From: Ectocarpus siliculosus
Taxonomy: Eukaryota; Sar; Phaeophyceae; Ectocarpales; Ectocarpaceae
Reading direction: 5' to 3'
Assembly (NCBI GenBank): GCA_000310025.1
Contig: FN649740.1
Span: forward strand, 3,649,774 to 3,713,773
DNA: 64,000 nt
The translations under genes and the position numbers were made by a program. The notes beneath the pieces are model-generated. The model was not told where the DNA came from, ran no database searches, and saw nothing but the letters and a program-made list of their open reading frames with translations. Below, piece after piece: positions 10,108 through 56,302 of this stretch (the first letter of the stretch is position 1; each line of letters opens with the position of its first letter).

Positions 10108-11803
10108 ATGGCATCGAGACAAGGCGATGGAACTCTTCATTTAGAGACTTCAGCGTTACACCTAGAGCTGAGCGCAGCTCTCAAGGCGAGTGCGTTTCAG
10201 AACCTGCTGCCGCGTATATCTTTGGACACTCTGCCATCCTTTTCGCCCCTGACAAATACATGTAGAGGTGTCTTGTCTGTGTCTGTGGCATCCCACATGC
10301 AAAACAAGTCGGGTGAATGTTAGCTGCTTTGCCTACCTCCAGTACGCGCCACCACTCAATGTTCCGTGTGACTACCCTACTGTAAGTGGGTTGTTCGTGT
10401 TATACAGCAGTGCTGCCGACGATTTTTTTCAAGTACCATGGTCGACGGCAGTACATGCGGTTGTCCACGAATTCCTGTACATGCAATTACACTTACATGG
10501 TAGTTCAAGAACGTGTGTACTACATATATGAGCGGAAGCTAGCCATTACTCGGTAGATCGTGGTTGCATTCTTGCTTTTTGTGCACTTTTTTGGGTCAAA
10601 TCACACCCTTTATCGTCCGTTTATCGTGTCTCCTGCTTTTTAGGAGGATGTGAGCCGGAAGAAGACGGACGAGATGAAAAAACGAGCTATTCATACGGCA
10701 GCAAGCTACGATGAATTCAGGCACATGGTCTCGTGCGCTCAGCTAAACCCTGTCACGTAAGACCTACTTGTGCTGTCAGACCCTGGACCGGCAAGGGCAC
10801 ACCAACCAATCTGTCAGCGACTTACGCGCATGGAGTGAAACGCGATAAGACTGCATACAATACAGGGTGCAAACTTGCTGCTGCTGCAGTTTGCCACTGC
10901 TGTTTCCTGCTGTAGACTACAGCAGTACCACTCACCCGCATCTCGTATGGGGAGATAATAGCCCACGGGGCTTTCTACGACGAAGCCACTCGATGGTTCC
11001 AGAGAAAGGCGAAACGATCCCCTAGCGCGCCCTGTGTAAAGGAACAGGGGTCTGTGTGGTTTGTGGGCACAACTATGTATGTAATACTTCGTATATCAAC
11101 CTTTCTTTGCCACCACGTTGCTTGCGGCAGGCGCAAAGAGATGGAAATGCTCTCAGTCCCCAAAAGGGGTTGGCAAGGACGAGTTGGTGGTGTCGCCCCC
11201 ACCACGAAGGTTTCAGGGAGCACTGGCCGACAGAAAGCGCCCAGAAGAACACAACGTTCTGTCGACACTGCAATCAGTGGCGGGGCGAAGGCAGGCCCTT
11301 TGCGCGCCCCGAAAGACCATGCGCAGTTCCAGCGGGATTGGCGAAGGCGGTGCTGCACCAACGGCGAACGGCGCGACTACCTTCGTCTAATTGGCCCCAA
11401 GAACGTATCAGCATTGTTTCGCGTTGAGATGGAACCGGACGTTCTGGGACAAGTGCTGTCGGTGGTATGTCAAGAGTTTCCACTTCATCCGCAACGGCTT
11501 GACACTGCCATGCCGGCAACGCCAGAGAACGAGGAACGGTCTGGTGCTCCAACAAGAGGAGACGCAGGTGGTAGCGCCGCCGAAACTGCAAACGGGAGTG
11601 CCTCTGCAGATAAAGCTGGTGCAAGGTTTTGCGTGGAGTGGCTTTGGGCACTATCTAGGACGGGCCGGTTTGCGGTGAACATCCTGTTCTTGGCGGACAA
11701 AGAAAAACAAGAATTGGCACGAGCGTTCGATCTGATATCTGCCGTATTAGGTGACGAAGACGACGAGGAAATTAGCAGCCTGCGGAAGGCTTACGCAGTG
11801 TAG
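10108..11803 (+). CDS. CCDC103: CCDC103-like dynein arm assembly factor
   Basis: Cytoplasmic/axonemal factor (DNAAF19) needed to attach outer dynein arms in motile cilia. Three exons give 287 residues: 10108-10185, 10644-10756, 11131-11803. The first two encode the N-terminal dynein attachment domain, with LELSAALK and ASYDEFRHMV matching the family. The last exon encodes QFQRDWRRR and then the C-terminal RPAP3-C-like domain (ALFRVEMEPDVLGQVL, ALSRTGRFAVNILFL). Intron 2 phase fits exactly (ac|g codon, LNPVT then RKEMEM). Intron 1 would use a GC donor (aag|gcgagt); this is the weakest part, so the first exon may differ. Human CCDC103 is 242 residues; the extra length is a low-complexity stretch after residue 150. 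The gene supports a flagellated stage. Confidence 0.83.
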
Positions 11804-12447: not shown

Positions 12448-15400
12448 TTAGTAGGGCCGGTTGTCTTCGCGAACACCAATGCGGCGTCCATCAAGGTCGG
12501 TGCCGTCGAGCTGGTTGATGGCATCAGCAGCATCTTGTTCCGATCCGAAGCGCACGGTTGCATATCCTTTCGAGCGGCCTTGTGCGTCCTCGGGGATCTC
12601 CACGAATTGCACCCTTCCACATTGCTTGAAGTGGTCCTTGAGGCTCTGCCACCCCGTCTCCCAGCTCACGTTTGAAACATGAACCTGACGTCCCTCTGCC
12701 CCTTCATGCAGCTGACCGATTCGTTTGCTACCGATGGGTCCCTGCCGAGGACACACAAAAAGAGGTATGGAAGTCATCCGTAGGTTTGCACAAAAGTGTG
12801 GTCGGCATACACAAGAGAGATTTCCCTCGCTTGCGAACCTTTCTCAGATCATTTAAGGCCAGCAAAGACGCCCGACCACTACTCCTGTACCGTGGAAACA
12901 CAATAAACCCGAACCAGGTCCCACCTCTTCACGGTCCTCCCTCACGAAAATCAGACGCCCCAAGAGCTCTGTGTCGTGTAGGTCCCGAATGGCGCTGTGC
13001 GCTTCTTGAGGCGTTTCGTACTCCACCACGGCACATCCCTTGGACCTGCCGCCAGGCTCTTGGAACAAATCGACGAACTTTACGCTGCCGGCCGCTCTCA
13101 TGTGATCCTTCAGGTCTTGCCATTGGCATTCCCAGCTCAAGTTGCCAACATAAACCTGAATTATGGAATTGTGCGGTCGCCCACAAAAAAACAACAGGAA
13201 GAAGTTACGATCAAAGGGTATTGACACAGATTACTTGGGGAAGATCTCGTACAGAGTTCGGTCCACAGACTTTCTGCTTCGAAGACCGAACGATTTACTT
13301 CGAGAGTCGAACAATTTTCGGAGTGGCTAAAGGTGGGGTAGATCGCTTGAGCCCAGAATGATTCAAGTGCGCTGTGTACCTTGGCACCAGCAGCCCCGCC
13401 CACTCCGCGTCCATGATTTCCAGCATCTCCTCGTTCTTCCCTAACTTGGATTGGCCGGCCCATGAGCTCAGTTTCGCTGAGCTGGCTGATAGCATTCCTT
13501 GCCTGCATGTAGATGAGCATCGAAAGAGTACACAACGTCAATGACGTTGCCATGATCCTCTCTTCGCGCGGTCCCACAGAAGCGCGTGAGCAGTTGGAGC
13601 CGGTGCCCCGAACCAAGAGTATTCGAGCCATTATCTCATGGAAACATTACGGCATTTCGAGCGCGCAACCCCCGAGAATCTTCGTAAGTCAACAACAACA
13701 TTTACCCTGACACAGCAGACCTTCCTCGTCTCAACAGCTTTACCTCGTAGGGCTTGGAGAACTCCACGGTTCCGAGTCCTTTGCTGCGACCGTCGGGGCC
13801 GACAAAAACATCGGCCCTAATCACCGAGCCGGCGTTTTTCATGTGGTCTTTGAGATCTTGCCACTGGACGTCGTATGCCAGGTTGCTCACGAACACCTAT
13901 AGGTCCAGGCACCACATCAAGGGATGACAGACAAAGAATTTGGATTCTGAAAACAAACGCTAGAGCACCAGAACATGCACAACAGACCCGCATGACCAGT
14001 CGGAAGGCATCGCGAAAAACATAAATCGTTGATTCTCGCACAGGGCGGCAGTAGAGGCTGCTCAAAACATACAGTTAACGCGTCTACCTCCACACGCCTC
14101 CTTTGAAATCAAAACAAAAATTCACACCATTCTAAATTCAAGTCAAAGAGCCAAAACGGCAGGCGCTCAAATAAGGTCTGTGTTGCGAATTATTATAGCT
14201 GATGCGTTCTACTGTCATCAGTAGAGGACACCATGAAGAGGCGTCGTGTGTGCTGGCGCGCTCAAATCTGCTTCGGTGGTGGTGACATCGACGGTCGTAA
14301 ATAGTGGCCTACATGTACAATCTCCGCAAATTAGACCGACACCTGGTCTCTTGTGTTGCTTGTGCTCGTCGCCACTGACCCCAATCTCCTAAACTGGGGT
14401 AGCTGATGCCACTAGCTACTGCTGACAACCCTCCGTTCACAGGTTTACAGACCGTGGCGGTAAGCACGGCTGAAACAAATGTTGGTTTTCCGCTTGGTTC
14501 CGGCGCAGATTTCCGGCTGTTTTCAGAGCCTGCTATGCATACGACCTTCGATATTTCAGCTCCAGTAGCAAACATAAACGTGCCAACACGCACGACGCCT
14601 CTTCATGGTGTATTCTACTGATGACAGTAGAATGCAGCAGCTAGCCCCGGCGGGAAGGTTTCCTTTCTTTGAATTGGATTCAAGTACCAGAAAATAGCCA
14701 GCGTCAAAATCACTTGTTCTTCCACCCCTTGACGCGATGGGTGCTTGGGGTTAGGTGCTAAGTTGACAACGTCGACGGTCACAAACTACGCGGCCAAAAC
14801 AATACAGCAAAATTGATCGGGTCGTCCTGGAATGTCTTCGTGAAATCTAATTTGACACCTTGCAGTTGGCATTGCCCCCGCCATTGAAGCCCCCGCCCCC
14901 GCCCCCGCCCCCGCCACCGAATCCGCCGCCACCACCAAAGCCTTGCTCCTCACGGTCCTCCCTCAGGTAGATCTGCAAATCGCGGACACCGACGATGTGA
15001 TGTTGTGAGCATGAGCTGGGAGAGAACTGCTGTAGTGTTTACTGGTCCTACACAAAGCCTACGAATCTGCGCCAAGCTCTCAACACACTCATGAGACCAA
15101 ACAACTCTCACCGGGCGCCCCATCAGGTCGGTGTCCTGAAGCCTGTCGATTGCATCGCTGGCACCGGCAGCAGAAGTGAATGTCACCAACCTGAATACAG
15201 TATTTGCCGAACATGCGGTATCAAGGGCAACCGTTGCTAGCGCGCTTCACACATACCGGTAGACCCACATGAGGCAATGAAACAAAAAAAAACGAATAAC
15301 ACCAAAGGCACAAGAAACAACTCAATGATCCCTTACCCGCGCCGGCGTTTTGAGGACTCAATGGCGTGACTCCCGTCATTTCACGGTTTCGTTTATTTCG

Positions 15401-17227
15401 CTGCCACGTTCCCTTTTCAGATCGAGGGGCATACATCCAGGTGCTGGTTCATAAAGTGCGACGGGTCCATTCACCGGCGGCGCCTTCCGTGTCCCGCCTT
15501 CTCTCTGCCTGTAATCGCCATCACACCAACCCCAAACCCATCCTGTCACCATACCCCGTTCGACCATCTTCCTTCCTTCCACCTCAAATATCAAACCAAC
15601 AACCCGCATCGGCCAACCGCCACCTTCACCACCCCCCTTCCCTATGGAAATATCCGGGAAGTAGCACCCACCCGTAGCCCTTTTGAACAGCAAACAGATG
15701 GACGAGTGAAGAGCATAAGAAGCAAAGGAGCGCGGGGGGGGGGACGGTTGGGCGCGTCAGAAGCGGTTGGCACCCACAATAGTTAACGTAGATCAGTGAA
15801 CAAAGTTCCACTTGTACAGGACTGCACCGTGGATAGCCGTAGCATACCGCATGAGACACGTGAGGACACTCCGGTGCTGGTGTCAAGACGTGGGCCATGA
15901 CGAAACACTTTTGTCCGGGAGGTTCTTGTACGGTACCGTGTAAAACATTTTGCAGTCCCAGTGAACAAACACACAACGTAGGAGCCAGGCATTGAGGGGG
16001 GTGACCAGGGTGTGTGATGAAAGGAGGATGCGGTGTCACCCGGTGTACGGCAACAACGAGGAGATGTGGGTGGAATGCCACTTGAATGCGGCAGGTTGCG
16101 CGAACTTCATCTCAGCGCAAATTTAATCTTGCTCCGTGTGCAATTATGAACAACTCGGCAGTAAGTCATGAACTTTAATTATATCCCAAGTGTTCCATTC
16201 GCATATGAGCCACAACCGGGACCATGCGAGTCTTCCATGACACAGGCGGTAGCAAGTTTGCAACAGCAATGCTCGAGCCGAGGGCGAACGGCACGCATGT
16301 GCAAGGACTGCTGTTGCTTCTGATCCTGGCGTTACAGTGACAATCCCCCGTGAGTAACAGGCTCAAACCATCAAATACGCATAGTGATCATCCCGTGTTT
16401 CGGACTGTTGTCTATCGTGGGAGGGGTACACATTAAAAGTTCAAGGTTGGCACGAAGATTTTTTGCTCGGGATCTGTTTGTGTGAGGACACGTGCGACAA
16501 CTGCATCATTTTTGTCCTCCTTCACCTGCTCGGGGTAGGTGTTGTTTTTATGGGAGGGGGGGAATCACGTCGCCAGGCGGCATTTACGAGTAATGCCATT
16601 GTTTGTACCGTGCCCTTTTCTAACTCGTCCGAGTTACGGCTTCTTCTGCGCAGCCCCCCCGTGTCTAAATAATGTGTTGATTTTGGTGTATCTCCTCTTC
16701 GCAGGGATCGTCGTGCAGCGTGTGCCCACTGAGAGCGAGTTGTCGAGCAACGGCGAAAAAGAAAACCGAAGATCCGTTCCCGCAGCCCTTGCAAAACTAG
16801 TATCAAAACAGAGGCTTGCACATACCACAGCAACACAGGATAAGCTAACTGTCTGCGTGATCAATCTTGTGCCCCAGCAGCCAGCGACAGCAAATCGCCT
16901 TCGGCGCCAACTCACCCTCGACCTCCCGTCTGCACCGCATGGGACTTCAGCCTTGCAGGGGCCGCATGTGCCCATCAGATCCTTCAGCTCCTTCCACGTC
17001 ACGGTCCACGCCAAATTGCCGACGTAAACTCTGTTGTTAGACCCCCCTCCTACAGAACCCTTTGGAGCAGGTTGACGGTATGGTTGGGTTTGCTGTTGTC
17101 GAGAGGCTCGGCCGGTGTTCCTCACTTTCCCGCCTCGGCCTCCTCTGTCAACTTTTTTCTTCGGCTTTGCTGCGAGCATCTCATCCAAGGACATCCCGAG
17201 AAGAGCTTCTGTGTCCATTGTATCCAT
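12448..17227 (-). CDS. Four-RRM RNA-binding protein (Gbp2/hnRNP M-like)
   Basis: Nuclear RNA-binding protein, probably in mRNA packaging, splicing or export. Eight exons join to 437 residues: 16916-17227, microexon 15672-15679, 15112-15190, 14859-14972, 13744-13896, 13380-13502, 12925-13155, 12448-12741. RRM1 starts near residue 67 (VYVGNLAW), RRM2 at 172 (VFVSNLAYDVQWQDLKDH), RRM3 at 264 (VYVGNLSWECQWQDLKDH) and RRM4 near 360 (VHVSNVSWETGWQSLKDH). A Gly-rich linker (residues 145-168, long GGC/GGG runs) follows RRM1. The 'WQDLKDH' helix and GRSKG loops are typical of yeast Gbp2/Hrb1 and hnRNP M-like proteins. The N-terminus (LGMSLDEMLAAKPKKK) resembles the UAP56-binding motif of mRNA export adaptors. 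Introns hold a MITE (14204-14637) and a long noncoding stretch (15680-16915). The first ATG, at 17225-17227, was chosen as the start. Confidence 0.9.
14204..14637. mobile_element. MITE-like element in an intron of the RRM gene
   Basis: About 55-bp terminal inverted repeats: the left end (14204-14258) and the reverse complement of the right end (about 14582-14637) share TTCTACTGTCATCAGTAGA, CACCATGAAGAGGCGTCGTG and more, with few differences. The interior does not code. It sits in the intron between exons 14859-14972 and 13744-13896. Confidence 0.75.
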
Positions 17228-26813: not shown

Positions 26814-27097
26814 GATGCTGAAGCTCCTAGCTTGTGGCTTGAGGAATGTGTGGCAGCCGCGGGCAAGCCAAGCCAAGCGGCATCGGGGCTCTTCACATAG
26901 GAATATTCATGGAGAGGTAGGTACCTTAATCACTGTGCCCCCAGGTGGCCGCCCCCCACCCCCCATTCATGTTGTTTGCACAGAGGACAGGCTATAAGTC
27001 ACACACACAGGCCAAGCCACCTCAGTCTCGACTCAAGGCGGAGGACCGAGAGCAGAGCTTGCACATCGCCAATCGGGTCCACACGGTGGTTGTCACC
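26814..27097. promoter_or_regulatory. Compact divergent promoter region, eL6 / TSR1
   Basis: A 284-bp gap between opposite start codons of a ribosomal protein gene and a ribosome assembly gene. A C-rich tract lies at 26950-26965. No defined element is recognised, but the arrangement suggests joint regulation. Confidence 0.5.
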
Positions 27098-30000
27098 ATG
27101 CCTGTCGGACACCGCCCTGGATCTCTCCGCCAGGAGAACAAGAAACACAAAGGCAACGCCGGGCACCAAAGTAAGCGGGCCTCCAAATCCGCTCTTGGAG
27201 CGGGACGAGTGGCAAACGAAAGGGGTGGTCCCAAAGCCGGGGTGAAGAGAGCAGCAGAGGCGCGAAAACAAAACCGCGCGAATCACACCGTCCAGATGCG
27301 CAAAAAGAAGCGGGAGGAAATCTGGCTCCAGAAGAGGCTAGGCTCGGAAGCCGGCCCTCCTAAGCTGTGTGTGTGGGTTTCGTTGTCCACCATAGCCACC
27401 CCTGACACCATTCAGCAAGGCGTTCTTGACCAGTGTGCCCGCACCAGTGGCGACCCCTCAACTGGAGTTGGCGTGGTTAGCGCTGCTTTCCACCAGTTCA
27501 AGCAGCGTGTGACGTTCTTGACACCCGGGCGGGACCTGGCGGCGGTGCTGGAGTTTGCGAAGGTGGCTGATCTTCTCTTGGTGGTTCTTCCCGTCCAGCA
27601 GGGAGCGGACTCGGCTATAGACGAGGTAAGCTAAACAGCGTACATCGTCTGACTGTGTTTCCCCCGCGGACGATACACTCACGCCCCCTGGTCCTGCCCG
27701 GAAGGAGTGCACGACACAATAGTAGAGGTGGTTGCTTCGGTGGTTGCCGGGTAGGTACAGGCTTCACCCGCCTTCGTCGTTCGTTCGCTCTCAACAGGTC
27801 GACCGCGTGCGGCGGGTCATACGTGTGTCCTCCTTCCCTTGCAAAGGCGTACAATGGTTTCCGTGGTTTAGACCTTCAGACGTATGCGTACGTCCTCATC
27901 TATGTCGATTGGGTACCTGTTTCATTGTGTCATTGTGCTATTCTACGCTGAAAACTCCGAACCTTAGACAAACCGTACATACATGTGAGTCTTGTCCGAG
28001 AAAGTCACCGCATCTACCGCCGTCCGTCGCCCGGATACTCCTGTAACGGTAACGTAGCCCTCAGCCTATGTGGGACGTGAGTTCGAGTCTTACACAACTA
28101 CTGGGGTGTTCTCGCGTGATGCCGAATCCTAATAATCGACTCGACTTAAGACGCGGCTGAGATCTTCTCGCGATAAAACGAGGGCAAGCACCACAGAAGA
28201 GTAATGACAAACGGAGGGGGGGGGGCGAAGGGGGGAGGGGGCGTCCTCTTATGTCTTGCAAGCCGCAGCGGTTAGACCATTAACGCGCGTCCTCGAGAGG
28301 ACGGAGCATTGCTGCCATAGGACCGATCACCGATGGCCAATTGTTCCTTCCCACTTTGCCAAAGGTGGCTCAAAATGTCTTCCCTAGTCTACCTATCCTA
28401 TCGATACCACTTCCCGCCTTGTGAACCCACTGCCTTTGCCCCAGTACAGCTACCGTCTTCTCCTGCATGCCTTGAACATCTCCCTGTATCATACCTTCCT
28501 TCTACTTTTCCCAGCTCAGTCATGTACCTTTCCCTCTCCTTCTTGTACAACAAACTTTCCGTATCTACATGAGCCCGGTCTTCGCACTCGGAGCCGCATT
28601 CGCATTTGAACTGCTTGTCTGGCATGTGAGGCCTTCCTTCTGCGTGACCTCGGTTGCTGCGTGCAAAACATCCTGAAGAGTGTGAAATCTGGCGTCCAGA
28701 TTATTGACGGGATGACAACGTACATAGCACACGCACAAAACACGCCTAAACCGCGCCTGTTTTGAATTCTGCTTCGCCTGTCCGGCAGGAGGGAGAAATG
28801 ATGATCACAGCCCTCAAGGCGGCAGGTCTGCCTGCTGTAGTTGGAGTAGTGCAGGGTCTTGACGTTCTCAAGGGCAAAAAACAATCTGACATGAAGAAGT
28901 GGGCGCAGCGCTTTTTCGAGACCGAGTTCGCTGGCCAGGCGAAGGCAGTAGACGCTTCCAACTCGAGTCTCTTGGCGCGCACACTCAGTACGACGGCGCC
29001 TCGGCGGATACACTGGCGGGCGATACGATCGTACCTCCTCGCGGACAGCACGGAGGTTGTACCCGAGAGCGGGTCAAGGGGTGACAAGTTTGGCACGCTG
29101 CATGTCCGCGGATACATTCGTGGCCGGCCACTTGATGTCAATCAAGTGGTCCACGTCGGCGATGCTGGGCACTTCGGGTTGCGACAGATCAACAGCGCCG
29201 CTGAACCGTTCCCGGTGAAGCCGAAAGACCGCGGTGGGGGGGCTCTGAAGGGGGAAAGTGCAGCACCGAGCGCCGGGGTGGAAGTCTTGGCGAGGGCAGA
29301 CCCTGAACGCGACGACCTCAGCGTGGAGGCTACCGTAGATAATCTAGCTGGCGAACAAACGTGGCCGACGGAGCAAGAGCTGGCCCAAGCTGGAGGCGAG
29401 GAAGAAATGGACGGGATGGTGGACCAGGAAGTGAAGGGAAACGACGAAGAAAAGAGCGGTGGTAAAGTATTACCTCAAGGCTGGTCTGGCTACCAAGCCG
29501 AGTGGCTTGAAGGTGCGGGCAGTGTAGATGGAGAGAACGAGGAGGGCAGTGATGAAGGGGAAGCATGGGCGTTCGACGAGAAGGACGATGACGACGAGTC
29601 GGTAGATCCCATGGATGCCACCCTTGACGCGGCTAGACGCCAGGTTGCCGAGAACGAGGACACTCGTTTCCCAGACGAGGTGGATACACCTGCGGATCGG
29701 TCAGCTCGCGAACGTTTTGCACGTTTTCGGGCGTTGAAGAGCTTCCGAACAAGCCCTTGGGATCCCAAGGAGAGCCTGCCCAAGGATTATGCGCGGATTT
29801 TTCAGGTGACAGCAGTAGTCCGCCTACGACATTGAAACAGTTTGCCACCATTCACTGTCAGATCATTAAATCATTTTATGCCAATGGTAGTAGAAGTGCA
29901 TTGTATTTTACTGACAGTTAGTACTGAGGACAGTATCTGACGCCTCTCCTGCGCATGTATGGTACTGTATCAAAGAGTGCAAGGAGTCACTTGCGCAAGC

Positions 30001-31199
30001 TACATGTAGTCACCTCGGGGCTCCTGGGATCCAGGAGCTTTGCTCCAATGAATTATGAAGCACCTGGACCGACACCTTTTCATGCACCCAAAGGCCCTTA
30101 ACGCCGCAAAGTGGACGACGAAACCTCACGATTTTGGTTCGAAATGTGGCATTCTACTTCCCTGTTGCTCGATATCCGCGCTAACGCATCTAACTATTGC
30201 GTGTGCTTTTTCGTATGTCAGTTCGAGGATTTCCCTGCCATGCAGAAAGATGTCCTCCGCGCTGGTGAAGCGATGGAGCGCCAGCAAAACCAGAACCTGC
30301 TGGAGGTCAAAGAGGGCTCCGAGCGTGGAAGTCGACGGTCTTCGTTTGCCTCCTCTGTGGTTGGAACGTGTGGAGCCGGCATGGATGTCGACTCTGCGGC
30401 TGATCAGGATCTTACTGACCCGTCCGGAGTACTTGCGGCTGATCAGGACCGCGTAAGCTACGTGCAGTCAGGGCAGTACGTCGAAGTCGTGATTGATTCG
30501 GTGCCTTTGGACGTATTGGAGAAAAGGAAGGAGCTGCTTGGGGGTAGGGATTGGCCTTTGGTTCTGTTCTCACTTTTACGGCATGAGCACCGCCTCAGTG
30601 CCCTGCACTTCAACATCAACCGCGACGCTCGCTTCGTCGAGCCTATCCCTTCGAAGGAACCTCTCATTTTTCAGTGTGGGTTCCGGAGGTGGGAAGCCAG
30701 ACCAGTATTCAGTCAAATCAACTTGAATTGTGACAAGCACAAGTACGAGCGATTTTTGCGACAGGATCGATTCTCAGCGGCAAGCGTGTACGGTCCGACC
30801 ACGTTTCAACCATCTCCAGTGTTGGTCTTCAAGGAGGTGGCTGCGACGGGGAGCAACGCAAAACGGACAGTCTTAGTGGCGACAGGGACTCTCCTGGGCG
30901 TCGATCCGGATCGTATCGTACTCAAGAAGATAGTGCTGACAGGGTACCCGATTCGCGTCCGAAAGCGCAAAGCTGTGGTGAAGCACATGTTCCATAGACC
31001 CGGAGACGTCAAGTGGTTCAAGCCGGCAGAGTTGGTCACCAAGTACGGGCTCACGGGGCATATCAAGGAGCCCGTCGGAACGCATGGGCTGATGAAGGTC
31101 ATCTTCAATAAGGCGGTCAAGCAAAATGACACCGTTTGTTTAAATCTGTACAAGCGTGTGTACCCTAAGATGGTCGCAGGAGAGGTGGTTGTGCGGTAG
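27098..31199 (+). CDS. TSR1: Pre-40S ribosome assembly factor TSR1
   Basis: GTPase-like scaffold of the Bms1/Tsr1 family that binds pre-40S particles in the nucleolus and cytoplasm and blocks early subunit joining. Three exons, all phase 0, give 840 residues: 27098-27625, 28789-29805, 30222-31199. The N-terminus HRPGSLRQENKKHKG is diagnostic, followed by a basic stretch and a degenerate G domain without a P-loop (normal for TSR1). FGTLHVRGYIRGRPLDVNQV belongs to the AARP2CN region. An acidic segment (residues about 370-455) follows, then the C-terminal beta-barrel domains (RRWEARPVFSQINLN, AVKQNDTVCLNLYKRVYPKM). Human TSR1 has 804 residues. The first intron (27626-28788) has a G-rich tract near 28217-28244. 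Confidence 0.95.
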
Positions 31200-35200: not shown

Positions 35201-38200
35201 GCCGATCCCCCTTCCTTTCATCGCCGCTGCTCTGGCTGTTGTCGTCGTCGCTGTCATCGTCCGAGCTCAAGACGGGCAGGTTCGCGACCACCTGTACCAC
35301 GTACAAGACGAGCACGTGTGTGTAAGGGAACAACGGACGCACTCGGCACTGCACACCTTCACTTCAACGACTCTCATCAATAACAGCAGTACTGCTTGTA
35401 TCGCGACCATTTGTCCTTGAATTCCGGTCGGGCACTAGTTAGTATCAACCCAGGGTAAACCCAGCTTCTTGTTTATTCAATAGAGAAGGCGACACTCCAA
35501 CTGTTCCTAGACCTTGCCTGGGCACAGCCTCCGTTTCCACCTAACGCCGTGCTCCCCTCTCCATTTGCCGCTTGATTGGATCTTCCGAGAGAAAAGAAGG
35601 CCGGCAGCAAGTCTGCCACTGTTGTAGAAGCTTGTCGAACGTCGTCTTCCGATGGAGGGCGACGCGCCAGAGTGTGCGTCAGAAGCTCCATGATGTCCTT
35701 GTGGATACCAGGCGTTCCTTCTTGTGGATACTTCAGCGTCAAGTGGGCAAACATGTACCACGGAGAGGTCTGCTCTGCCTGGTGCCTCAATACCCGGATA
35801 CCCTCCTTGCTTCGTGGCCGACTGCCCGTCGTCGCTGTATCGTCGCTCTTCACAGGCAACGTGCCTGGGCTGTCCGTCGCTGTAGCAGCAGCACTTCCAT
35901 CCAGCGCCGCCGTATCAGTTTCTCCCGTACTGCCCTGGCCGTTTATACTGTCGCCGTCCGCAGCGGTCGACGTAGGGGATACCCGCCCAAGTATCAGCAC
36001 GTCTTTTTGGGCACTGTGAACCTTTTCTCGGGCAGCCTTGACGACCGCGGCCTTCTGAGGGTCCTCGTCTACTTTCCTGTCCTTGATTTCCTGAAGCAGA
36101 GCCCTGTTAGACGTATGGCGCTTGTCTTCGCGGCGAAAGTTGTACGACCGGTGGTCTAGACTCCTGTGGAAATGTTTCTGGGCAAGTTCCTTCCAGCCAC
36201 CCTTAGCTTCTTCCCGCGCCACGCACCACTCCTCTTCCTTTAGCCTCAACCGCTTCAACACCACCGGAATCGCTACTGCTGGGTTCTTGCGCAACAGGTC
36301 GACAACTTCGGGCCCGTGATCTCCGTAGAGCCGAGATATTGTGCTGAGATGTAGCGCTCCGAGCGTGCGCCTGTCTAAGCGGTACTGGAATTGCGGCAAC
36401 ACTACATCACCGCCGTCTGGCCCACTTATGGATGAAGCCCCCTCCCGACTAGTCGCTGCGGGGGCCGCATTTTGCCCGAGAGCAGACCCCGCCGTGGCTC
36501 TTAACGCCTCGATCTCTTCTTCTGCCGGTTCAAGCCGAGCAATCGCCGAAGCTACACCGTCTATCAGCATGTCCAACTCGAAGCGCTCATCTTCAACCTT
36601 GAAAAGCTGCTCTTCGTTCGGGTTGCGCCGCATGTGTTTGAAGCTGCCGCTGTCTTCACTCCCGACCGGAACACTGACCCACGTGTCGTTCAGCACTGCG
36701 TCCTCGTTTGGACTCCGTCCGCTGCACGAGGTGACCTGATAATCTTGGGGTAGCTCGCGGTAGCTCGGAGTACACATCTTGGCGCTCTGGAAGTTGATCT
36801 CTGAGAGCCCCAAAGTGGGCATCGCGTCTCTGGGGGGTGGTTCCAACTTCCCCCGCCGGTAGACAAGATCCTTGAATTCGTCCATCAGGTCAAATCCGTC
36901 GTGGGCCTCGAACAGATCCTGTACCATATCCAGCAGTTCGTCCCGCCCCAAAATTTCGTTGCTGAACAAGTCGAGACACTTGAGGAACTCTGTCCAATCA
37001 GTGTCGTCTCCGCTCGACGACAGTACATCACGTGCTTGATCAAACAACTGGTTGGCGGGAGAGGTCTTGATGGTCCCTTGCGAGTCCATTGACGACCACC
37101 CTCGACCCCCAGCCCCGCCAGCGTCATCCGATTCTCGCGTGCGCTTTTTGGGCCCTTTGAAGACACCGTCGGGGCCAAGTTCGTAATCTTCAGCTTGAGA
37201 CCACATTTGGCGCCCCTTCCGGGCTTGCCTTCCACCGCGCTGAGTTTGCATGTGGTTGTTTCCAGCGTACGGGTTCCGGTCAGGTTCACTACCGGTCCCG
37301 CCGTTTGAATACTGCGAGCGTGACCCGTACCCACCATGATAGCCACGCTGGGTGTTGGTCCGACCCCGGCCGTAAGCGCGCTGCTCGCGCCACTCTTGTT
37401 CGTCGTCGTCACTCCTGTAAGTCGAGCTACTTCCCCCCAGCACTCGTTGCTGTGTTCGATGCCCGCGCGACTGACCCCGGGACGAATTTGCAGGCCTGGC
37501 TCGGCCATCGAGCCTGCCACGCTGGGATCCACCTTGAGGAGCGTGCGTAGAAAGGCGCTGCCCGCGCTGCCCGTTCAGCGCACGGCCCAGCCTAACTTCG
37601 GCTTCCACGGCAGCGCTATCAAGCCTCTCCTTGGCCTGCGCCTGGACGGTGTCCGGGAGAAAGTAGGTGAACTCCCTCAGCAGATCGGGTTCGTCGGCGA
37701 ACAGGTCGGTGATCTGCTCCAGCACATGATTGATACCTGAGTGCGTATCTGTAACGCGAAGCATGCCCCATGGGAAGTGGAAAAGAGCAGAACAAGGCAT
37801 CAGCTCTTCTACAACTTCACCAAGCGAAACAAGGGTATCCGCAATCGCACAGAGAGGCTGACGTTGTCGGGGCGGAAACATATAGGCACGCAAGGCAGGG
37901 CGACGGCGAACGGCGGCCGAGTAGGCACATGCACGTGCATGGGCAGGCGTAGTAGACGCCTGGGTCTACAGCCACAATTCAAACCAATACTGCTGCATGC
38001 ATGTCGTCCGGACGAGCACAATGAGCTTCTATGTAAATGTTTGTTTACCGCCTGCGTTTGAAGAGTACAGAATCAGCCGCATGCTTCCCGCCCCAGTTAC
38101 GTGATGGCAAGTTGCAAAATATAGGCCGGGTTACGGTCCAGTGATGAGAAAACTCTACTTCTTTGAGTGCAGCGAACTACAAACCAGCAACTACATAGCA

Positions 38201-55196: not shown

Positions 55197-56302
55197 TTTT
55201 GCGCAATGGTGATGAGCTCTTCGATCGAAAAGTAGGGAACACTACGTATCATTTCGCCTGTACATCTTCCAGGCGCTTGCCTTGTTGCGATGTGATTTTT
55301 GCTGACCATCGTGTGGGACGAAAAGGATTCGGATTTTCAGAATCACGTAGGTTCGGTTAATTATAGGGGCCTAGGGTCCTAGCTTCCACCCTGACACCCT
55401 GTGGGGAGGCTGCCCTAGGGGGTCAACGGAGGGCGTATGGCTCTCTTGTACGTATGTCTCGTGCTCTGTCTGTCTGTCTGTCGGTCTGTCTCTCACACTA
55501 TTCTCAGCTCGTGAGTTACCACGACATGCTAACACACACTTAGATTCAGTACGTGTGACTGCCGGACATTTCTTCTCCGCATTCCGCACTTCGCAATATG
55601 ATACAATAGCTATAATGTTGGTTATTCTCAACAAAGAGTGTGTTACCGCCGCCGCCGCCGTGAGGTGCACAAAACTGTTGTGCTAGAACAACAGAGTATA
55701 CAACTTACACCCTATTGTCACGTAGAGGGGGTATCATGCAGTAGTCGCTTTCCGTTGAGTGTATCAAAATGACTGTTTCTGCGGCGGCGGGACGTATCTC
55801 TTTGATCATTGTGTGTCGTGCATTGTAGACAGCTGCTGAATGCTGCTGTCCTTGTTCGCGGTATGTATGTGTGTGCTTCTGTTTTTCCCGCCGAGGTGCA
55901 TGAAGAGAGGTGCACGAAGAGCGTGATGTGCTTCGACAACCACGTCGACAGCTAGAGGTAGTGCTATCCGTTCTCGTCAGCCCACCAACAACAAACGGTA
56001 TAGTAAACCTCCTATCTCAACAAGCAGTTGGCGCGCGTCCAGTTCGTAGACTCCATGCTCGCTTTCTCAGTGCTCGCTTTCAATGCTTGCGGCACGAACT
56101 GCGGCGCCGTTTCACTCCGTACGCCGCACCCTCCGCACTCCGTAATTTTGCTTTGTGCACGCTTTTTTCCCGCCGTATGTTGCGTGAAATAATAGTGTGG
56201 TGCTTTAATGACACCCATCGTTACGTAGGGGGGATGTCCCGCATTCCTCTGAAAGTATTATAGGTTCTACAGGAGGAGTACGTAGCTGTGTAGAGTAGTG
56301 GT

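Follow-up and report, generated by a model that had tools for sequence, protein, structure and literature searches.

A probable exon of only eight bases, GGCTACGG, lies within the coding sequence for the first RNA-recognition domain of an RNA-binding protein in the brown alga Ectocarpus siliculosus. Judging from the genomic sequence, we expect it, with a probability of about 0.92, to be spliced as a genuine spliceosomal microexon that the reading frame requires, in a nuclear gene of eight exons whose hnRNP M-like product has four RRMs. The window analysed is a stretch of 64,000 nucleotides of contig FN649740.1 (positions 3,649,774 to 3,713,773), in which the gene occupies 17227-12448 on the minus strand; once spliced, it reads without a stop for 437 aa and codes for four RRMs (Table 1), and all five junctions after exon 3 are GT-AG and in phase 0. 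The microexon had been proposed in a first-pass annotation, and the coordinates given there proved exact. Exon 1 runs as far as 16916 and closes in phase 0 with G-R-S-R; there the minus strand reads GAC GGG AGG TCG AGG and then the donor gtgagt (AGG/gtgagt); the next coding exon opens at 15190 with one extra base (ag/G TTG GTG ACA TTC); and the eight bases stand at 15679-15672 of the minus strand as ag/GGCTACGG/gtgggt. The broken frame foreseen for a direct join of exons 1 and 3 is also found: eight bases do not make up whole codons, so the exon has to be included, and leaving it out brings a stop at codon 138, in exon 4, with four exon junctions still to follow. With the microexon in place, the frame reads D-G-R-S-R-G-Y-G-L-V-T-F and thus contains the predicted S-R-G-Y-G-L-V-T-F over three exons. 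The element therefore has the size (at most 15 nt), the GT-AG flanks and the frame-restoring position between two exons of a spliceosomal microexon, and the interpretation is supported by its top rank among the enumerated joins, its Pfam score and flanking signals that are extreme for this window.

Table 1. Exons of the RRM gene and sequence features flanking the microexon (positions in the window).
Feature	Positions	Strand	Description
Exon 1	16916..17227	-	ATG, basic N-terminal tail, RRM1 as far as G-R-S-R; phase 0 end
Microexon GGCTACGG	15672..15679	-	8 nt; Gly-Tyr-Gly with first base of exon 3; RNP1 positions 2-4
Exon 3	15112..15190	-	One base completes Gly, then LVTF..., further RRM1; phase 0 end
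Exon 4	14859..14972	-	RRM1 end and Gly-rich linker; contains the codon-138 stop met on microexon skipping
Exon 5	13744..13896	-	First part of RRM2; RNP1 uninterrupted (GRSKGLGTVEF)
Exon 6	13380..13502	-	Second part of RRM2
Exon 7	12925..13155	-	RRM3; GRSKGCAVVEY uninterrupted
Exon 8	12448..12741	-	RRM4; GRSKGYATVRF uninterrupted; stop codon
Pyrimidine-rich (C+T) tract	15685..15747	-	Long, upstream of microexon
AG-free zone	15682..15810	-	129 nt, precedes acceptor AG (15681-15680)
G/U-rich start of downstream intron	15492..15671	-	13 GGG, GU-rich pentamers; candidate intronic splicing enhancer

The residues at stake belong to RNP1, the consensus of which is [RK]-G-[FY]-[GA]-[FYILV]-[VIL]-x-[FY]; against this consensus, the "perfect RNP1" of the first-pass annotation holds. 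At the position coded by the microexon in RRM1, the other three RRMs of the gene all have G-x-[G/A] within unbroken exons, and the eight bases therefore restore columns that are present in the other three copies. The same place carries G-x-[G/A] in 10 of the 13 listed domain alignments to solved chains, namely hnRNP M (1/1), PABP (4/4), nucleolin (3/4) and two cS22-type chains (1/2 each); the exceptions are RRM1 of nucleolin and, in both cS22-type chains, the first RRM. The Pfam RRM domain (PF00076) matches the protein in four stretches with 248.2 bits, and RRM1 alone reaches 64.1 bits against a gathering cut-off of 20.7. By all of these comparisons (RRM2-4, solved-chain alignments and Pfam), the microexon codes for residues that are conserved in the family. 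Together with one base of exon 3, it would supply the Gly-Tyr-Gly of positions 2-4 of the RNP1 octapeptide, on strand beta-3 of RRM1, and the aromatic side chain would be expected to stack on RNA.

Profile matches to solved chains suggest the name hnRNP M-like for the protein. The best single-domain matches of the four-RRM profile are the three human hnRNP M RRM chains (5e-21 to 2e-19), which are outranked by six longer chains (PABP, nucleolin, nucleolar protein 4, two cS22-type chains and SR34); for RRM1 alone, the best single-domain solved chain is likewise hnRNP M. The protein resembles the hnRNP M/Gbp2-Hrb1 multi-RRM family in having RRMs of the form V-x-N-L-x-Y/W-x-x-x-W-x-x-L-K and differs from it in their number, since ScGBP2 has three RRMs and PfGBP2 two (PMC8902816), against the four of this protein. 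A search of viral contigs with the spliced protein found no relatives, and a scan of them with the four-RRM alignment found three loci, L001-L003, in which the RRMs lie in single uninterrupted ORFs amid dense ORF packing. These loci look prokaryotic or viral and are therefore uninformative on introns. Prokaryote genome contigs contained no relative in either of two scans, and the viral and prokaryote collections together yielded no eukaryotic relative.

Several other features of the locus can be recorded here. The Gly-rich linker between RRM1 and RRM2 (14874-14936, minus strand) is encoded by a repeat of the GGCGGGGGC type, short and imperfect, for which length variation is possible. Intron 4 contains an inverted repeat (14196-14299/14540-14643) with 104-nt arms that are 79% complementary and 240 nt apart; it is a foldback or MITE-like element, and other copies were not found within the window. 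Tail-to-tail with the RRM gene lies an ORF that encodes an RPAP3_C domain (10916-11803, plus strand). Farther away are a Tsr1-like gene of 40S ribosome biogenesis (exons 26930-31199, plus strand), with AARP2CN, RIBIOP_C and Tsr1_G-like matches in three ORFs, the last of these matches just below the cut-off, and part of a Sin3 co-repressor gene (35473-37965, minus strand), where PAH repeats and a Sin3_corepress domain share a single ORF of 830 aa. These neighbours point to a nuclear eukaryotic genome.

How well the eight bases compare with other ways of building RRM1 was examined by enumerating open in-frame joins with a donor in the gene's first 450 nt, introns of at least 30 nt and at most one cassette of up to 250 nt, the last acceptor of the cassette joins being restricted to about 60 nt around 15190. 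The 6,383 joins so obtained (12 two-piece and 6,371 with a cassette) were scored with a profile built only from RRM2, RRM3 and RRM4 of the gene. The 8-nt exon ranks first with 79.1 bits, followed by a join with 71.8. Under Pfam RRM_1, the 64.1 bits of RRM1 with the microexon compare with 27.6 to 60.4 bits for 11 hand-picked alternatives: plain skipping gave 27.6, and the eight other cassettes scored, two of which had been drawn from control stretches at other places in the window, gave 49.8 to 60.4, a range spanned by the five that were chosen in addition to the 8-mers described below. When other stretches of the window stood in for the intron, the real interval scored 92.6 bits with the RRM2-4 profile, the best of 259 overlapping stretches 91.5, and none of the 259 was higher; one control cassette reaches 60.4 bits in Pfam RRM_1. 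The peptide fit alone is thus not overwhelming, and the small three-paralogue profile is not decisive by itself. Since this profile discriminates only weakly as a chance test, we place the weight on Pfam, on shuffled sequences and on the flanking signals.

The 1725-nt interval between exons 1 and 3 contains four AG-N8-GT sites, against a shuffle mean of 5.2, so the pattern of splice dinucleotides alone is uninformative. Only one of the four encodes G-x-G/A, and at least one such site occurs in 6.1% of 5000 dinucleotide shuffles. The proportion falls to 0.24% for the Gly-aromatic-Gly/Ala form and to 0.3% for G-x-G/A followed by GTRNGT, and the aromatic form followed by GTRNGT appeared in none of the 5000. 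The three other 8-mers of the interval (LIL, KKP and QQQ), which lack G-x-G/A, were rejected at 51.7 to 52.6 bits in Pfam RRM_1. Eight-base cassettes with GC, AT-AC or AG-AT ends have 11 sites, none of which gives G-x-G/A, and a second copy of the microexon region was not found in the window at E 0.01.

A separate line of evidence comes from the flanks, where the AG-free zone, the long pyrimidine tract and the G-rich downstream intron are signals independent of coding that had no part in the choice of the site. The first-pass annotation had described the tract before the microexon as pyrimidine-rich, and this stands over 50 bases, where the 76% C+T is the highest of the 72 AGs in the interval and is reached by 0.3% of 7,584 AGs in the window; the last 20 bases have only 70% C+T, an unremarkable value reached by 7.2% of window AGs. 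With both strands counted, 10 of the window's 7,598 AG intervals attain a length of at least 129 nt. A point against the site is its acceptor, which ends in AAAAG, with A at -3; of the gene's remaining six, five have CAG and one has TAG. One candidate for the branch point is a branch-point-like CTGAC with the A at -78 (15757, minus strand); nearer candidates are CTTAT at -37 and TTCAC at -28. In a protein-blind scan of both strands for an AG-free zone of at least 60 nt, at least 70% C+T and AG/3-20 nt/GTRNGT, with thresholds set after the site had been seen, the microexon was one of two sites. The other, at 55508 on the plus strand, is a 3-nt CTC with a 74-nt AG-free zone before its AG and GTRNGT after it, and is probably a chance match.

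The downstream intron opens with a similarly unusual composition. The number of GGG in its first 180 nt is reached by 1.1% of stretches of this length and the excess of G over C by 0.016%, G4Hunter values rise to 1.88 (top 0.1% of the strand), and 11 GU-rich pentamers fall within the first 201 nt, a count reached by 0.07% of stretches. We infer from this composition that the stretch is a candidate enhancer. In plant microexon work, strict motifs were defined as >80% T in 20 bases and >80% G in 10 (PMC8831610), and both flanking introns here just miss these cut-offs, with maxima of 12 and 16 T per 20 and of 8 G per 10 in both. Except for these strict thresholds and the A at -3, the intronic splicing signals around the eight bases are strong.

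Microexons can accommodate few exonic enhancers and force the complexes at their two splice sites close together, and known cases compensate by intronic signals. Because the exon is too small for exonic enhancers, recognition here would most likely proceed through such signals as well. The signals used may include the long pyrimidine tract and, within the 129-nt AG-free zone, a branch point far upstream, and we propose that this distance keeps U2AF/U2 and U1 from colliding; the good donor GTGGGT and the enhancer-like G/U-rich stretch downstream would further aid recognition of the 8-nt exon. Constitutive inclusion seems the likely mode because the microexon is needed for the frame and for the aromatic residue of RNP1.

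The flanking signals lie in the same direction as those of known microexons (PMC8831610, PMC9929638). One close likeness is to exon 2 of human MPC1, which is constitutive, frame-breaking and only 4 bp long, and for which 67 bp upstream and a 6-bp donor suffice; its pyrimidine-rich region is farther upstream than usual (PMC9929638). Both exons are tiny, not a multiple of 3, required for the frame and set between long flanking introns with a distant pyrimidine region, whereas the MPC1 exon was tested in minigenes and the present one has 8 nt, belongs to an RNA-binding protein and is known from sequence; 6 bp downstream are enough for MPC1 (PMC9929638), and here a G-rich stretch follows. Plant microexons of 1-15 nt, which annotation often misses, share the size class and T- or G-rich types of flank, and they differ in that the tract here is C+T and not >80% T, the G runs are just under the cut-off, and the hosts are land plants and not a brown alga (PMC8831610). 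A vertebrate microexon has the enhancer GGGGCUG downstream of its donor (PMC9929638) and so resembles our case in a G-rich stretch soon after the donor, but the lineage is different and the word GGGGCTG is absent from the downstream intron here. The nine copies of this word in the window equal the chance expectation. The vertebrate enhancer is reportedly the same element that Carlo et al. described in cTNT in 1996. Microexons in an RRM gene are mentioned, as data not shown, in the paper on Shep, the consulted part of which does not place them in RNP1 (PMC6404607). No description of a microexon coding for RNP1 was found in the open-access literature searched, nor, with titles judged, was any paper there on microexons in brown algae or stramenopiles or on small exons in Ectocarpus.

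Could the frame be bridged in some other way? Another donor of exon 1 might be joined directly to a downstream acceptor, and two of the 12 two-piece joins, 16923 to 15190 and 16912 to the upstream acceptor 15236, are indeed open and in frame. All 12 score lower than the microexon, however, the best at 61.1 bits, and these two reach 58.0 and 61.1 bits with the paralogue profile (79.1 with the microexon) and 41.4 and 43.0 bits in Pfam (64.1). The 16923 join reads D-G-R-L-V-T-F, which shortens RRM1 by deleting S-R-G-Y-G and hence much of RNP1, and the 16912 join replaces the same residues; to the eye, moreover, the 16923 donor (GGGAG/gtcgag) looks poor beside the AGG/gtgagt seven bases on. We consider such a gene without a microexon extremely improbable, and scarcely more credible is a different or longer cassette in the 1725-nt interval, with an insertion near the beta-2/beta-3 loop. 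Between the canonical outer sites, 104 single cassettes no longer than 250 nt are open and in frame, the 8-nt exon included, but the next best with these sites gives a poorer RRM fit (71.0 against 79.1 bits), and the 50-base pyrimidine tract is less rich at every other AG of the interval.

A compatible variant of the microexon reading, which we regard as unlikely, is that the exon is real and serves as a regulated switch: skipping, or detention of an intron, would lead to a premature stop and turn expression off, under the control of the G/U-rich intron and possibly of the gene's own hnRNP M-like product. In favour of this variant, the codon-138 stop precedes the next junction by 91 nt, and the 11 GU pentamers stand against a window mean of 1.07. 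By analogy, human HNRNPM has a preference for GU-rich elements of long proximal introns and there guards against the aberrant inclusion of exons (PMC8346284), G-rich telomere-repeat RNA is a ligand of PfGBP2 (PMC8902816), and in a plant data set an intron next to the microexon was detained in 50 of 69 constitutive cases studied (PMC8831610). On the other side, constitutive inclusion would make use of the same G-rich signals. From the RNA preferences of HNRNPM and PfGBP2 (PMC8346284, PMC8902816), the G/U-rich intron could be a target of the protein itself, and a somewhat more doubtful idea is autoregulation, in which the hnRNP M/Gbp2-like, putatively G/U-binding protein would set inclusion of the microexon through the G/U-rich, quadruplex-prone start of the intron, with skipping leading to the premature stop. 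If this were true, the exon that enables RNA binding by RRM1 would be the very exon that the protein regulates.

Taken as a microexon required for the frame, the eight bases have consequences for how such genes are read. Gene-finding software would probably miss them and mis-predict the protein, and in an automatic annotation the protein would very likely appear truncated or distorted. The pattern of the flanks, with an AG-free zone, a long pyrimidine tract, a strong donor and a G-rich follow-up, can serve as a search rule for more microexons. Their location is notable, as they fall in the functional core of an RNA-binding protein, and they suggest that frame-breaking microexons of less than 10 nt, which have been described in plants and animals, are found in the brown-algal lineage too.
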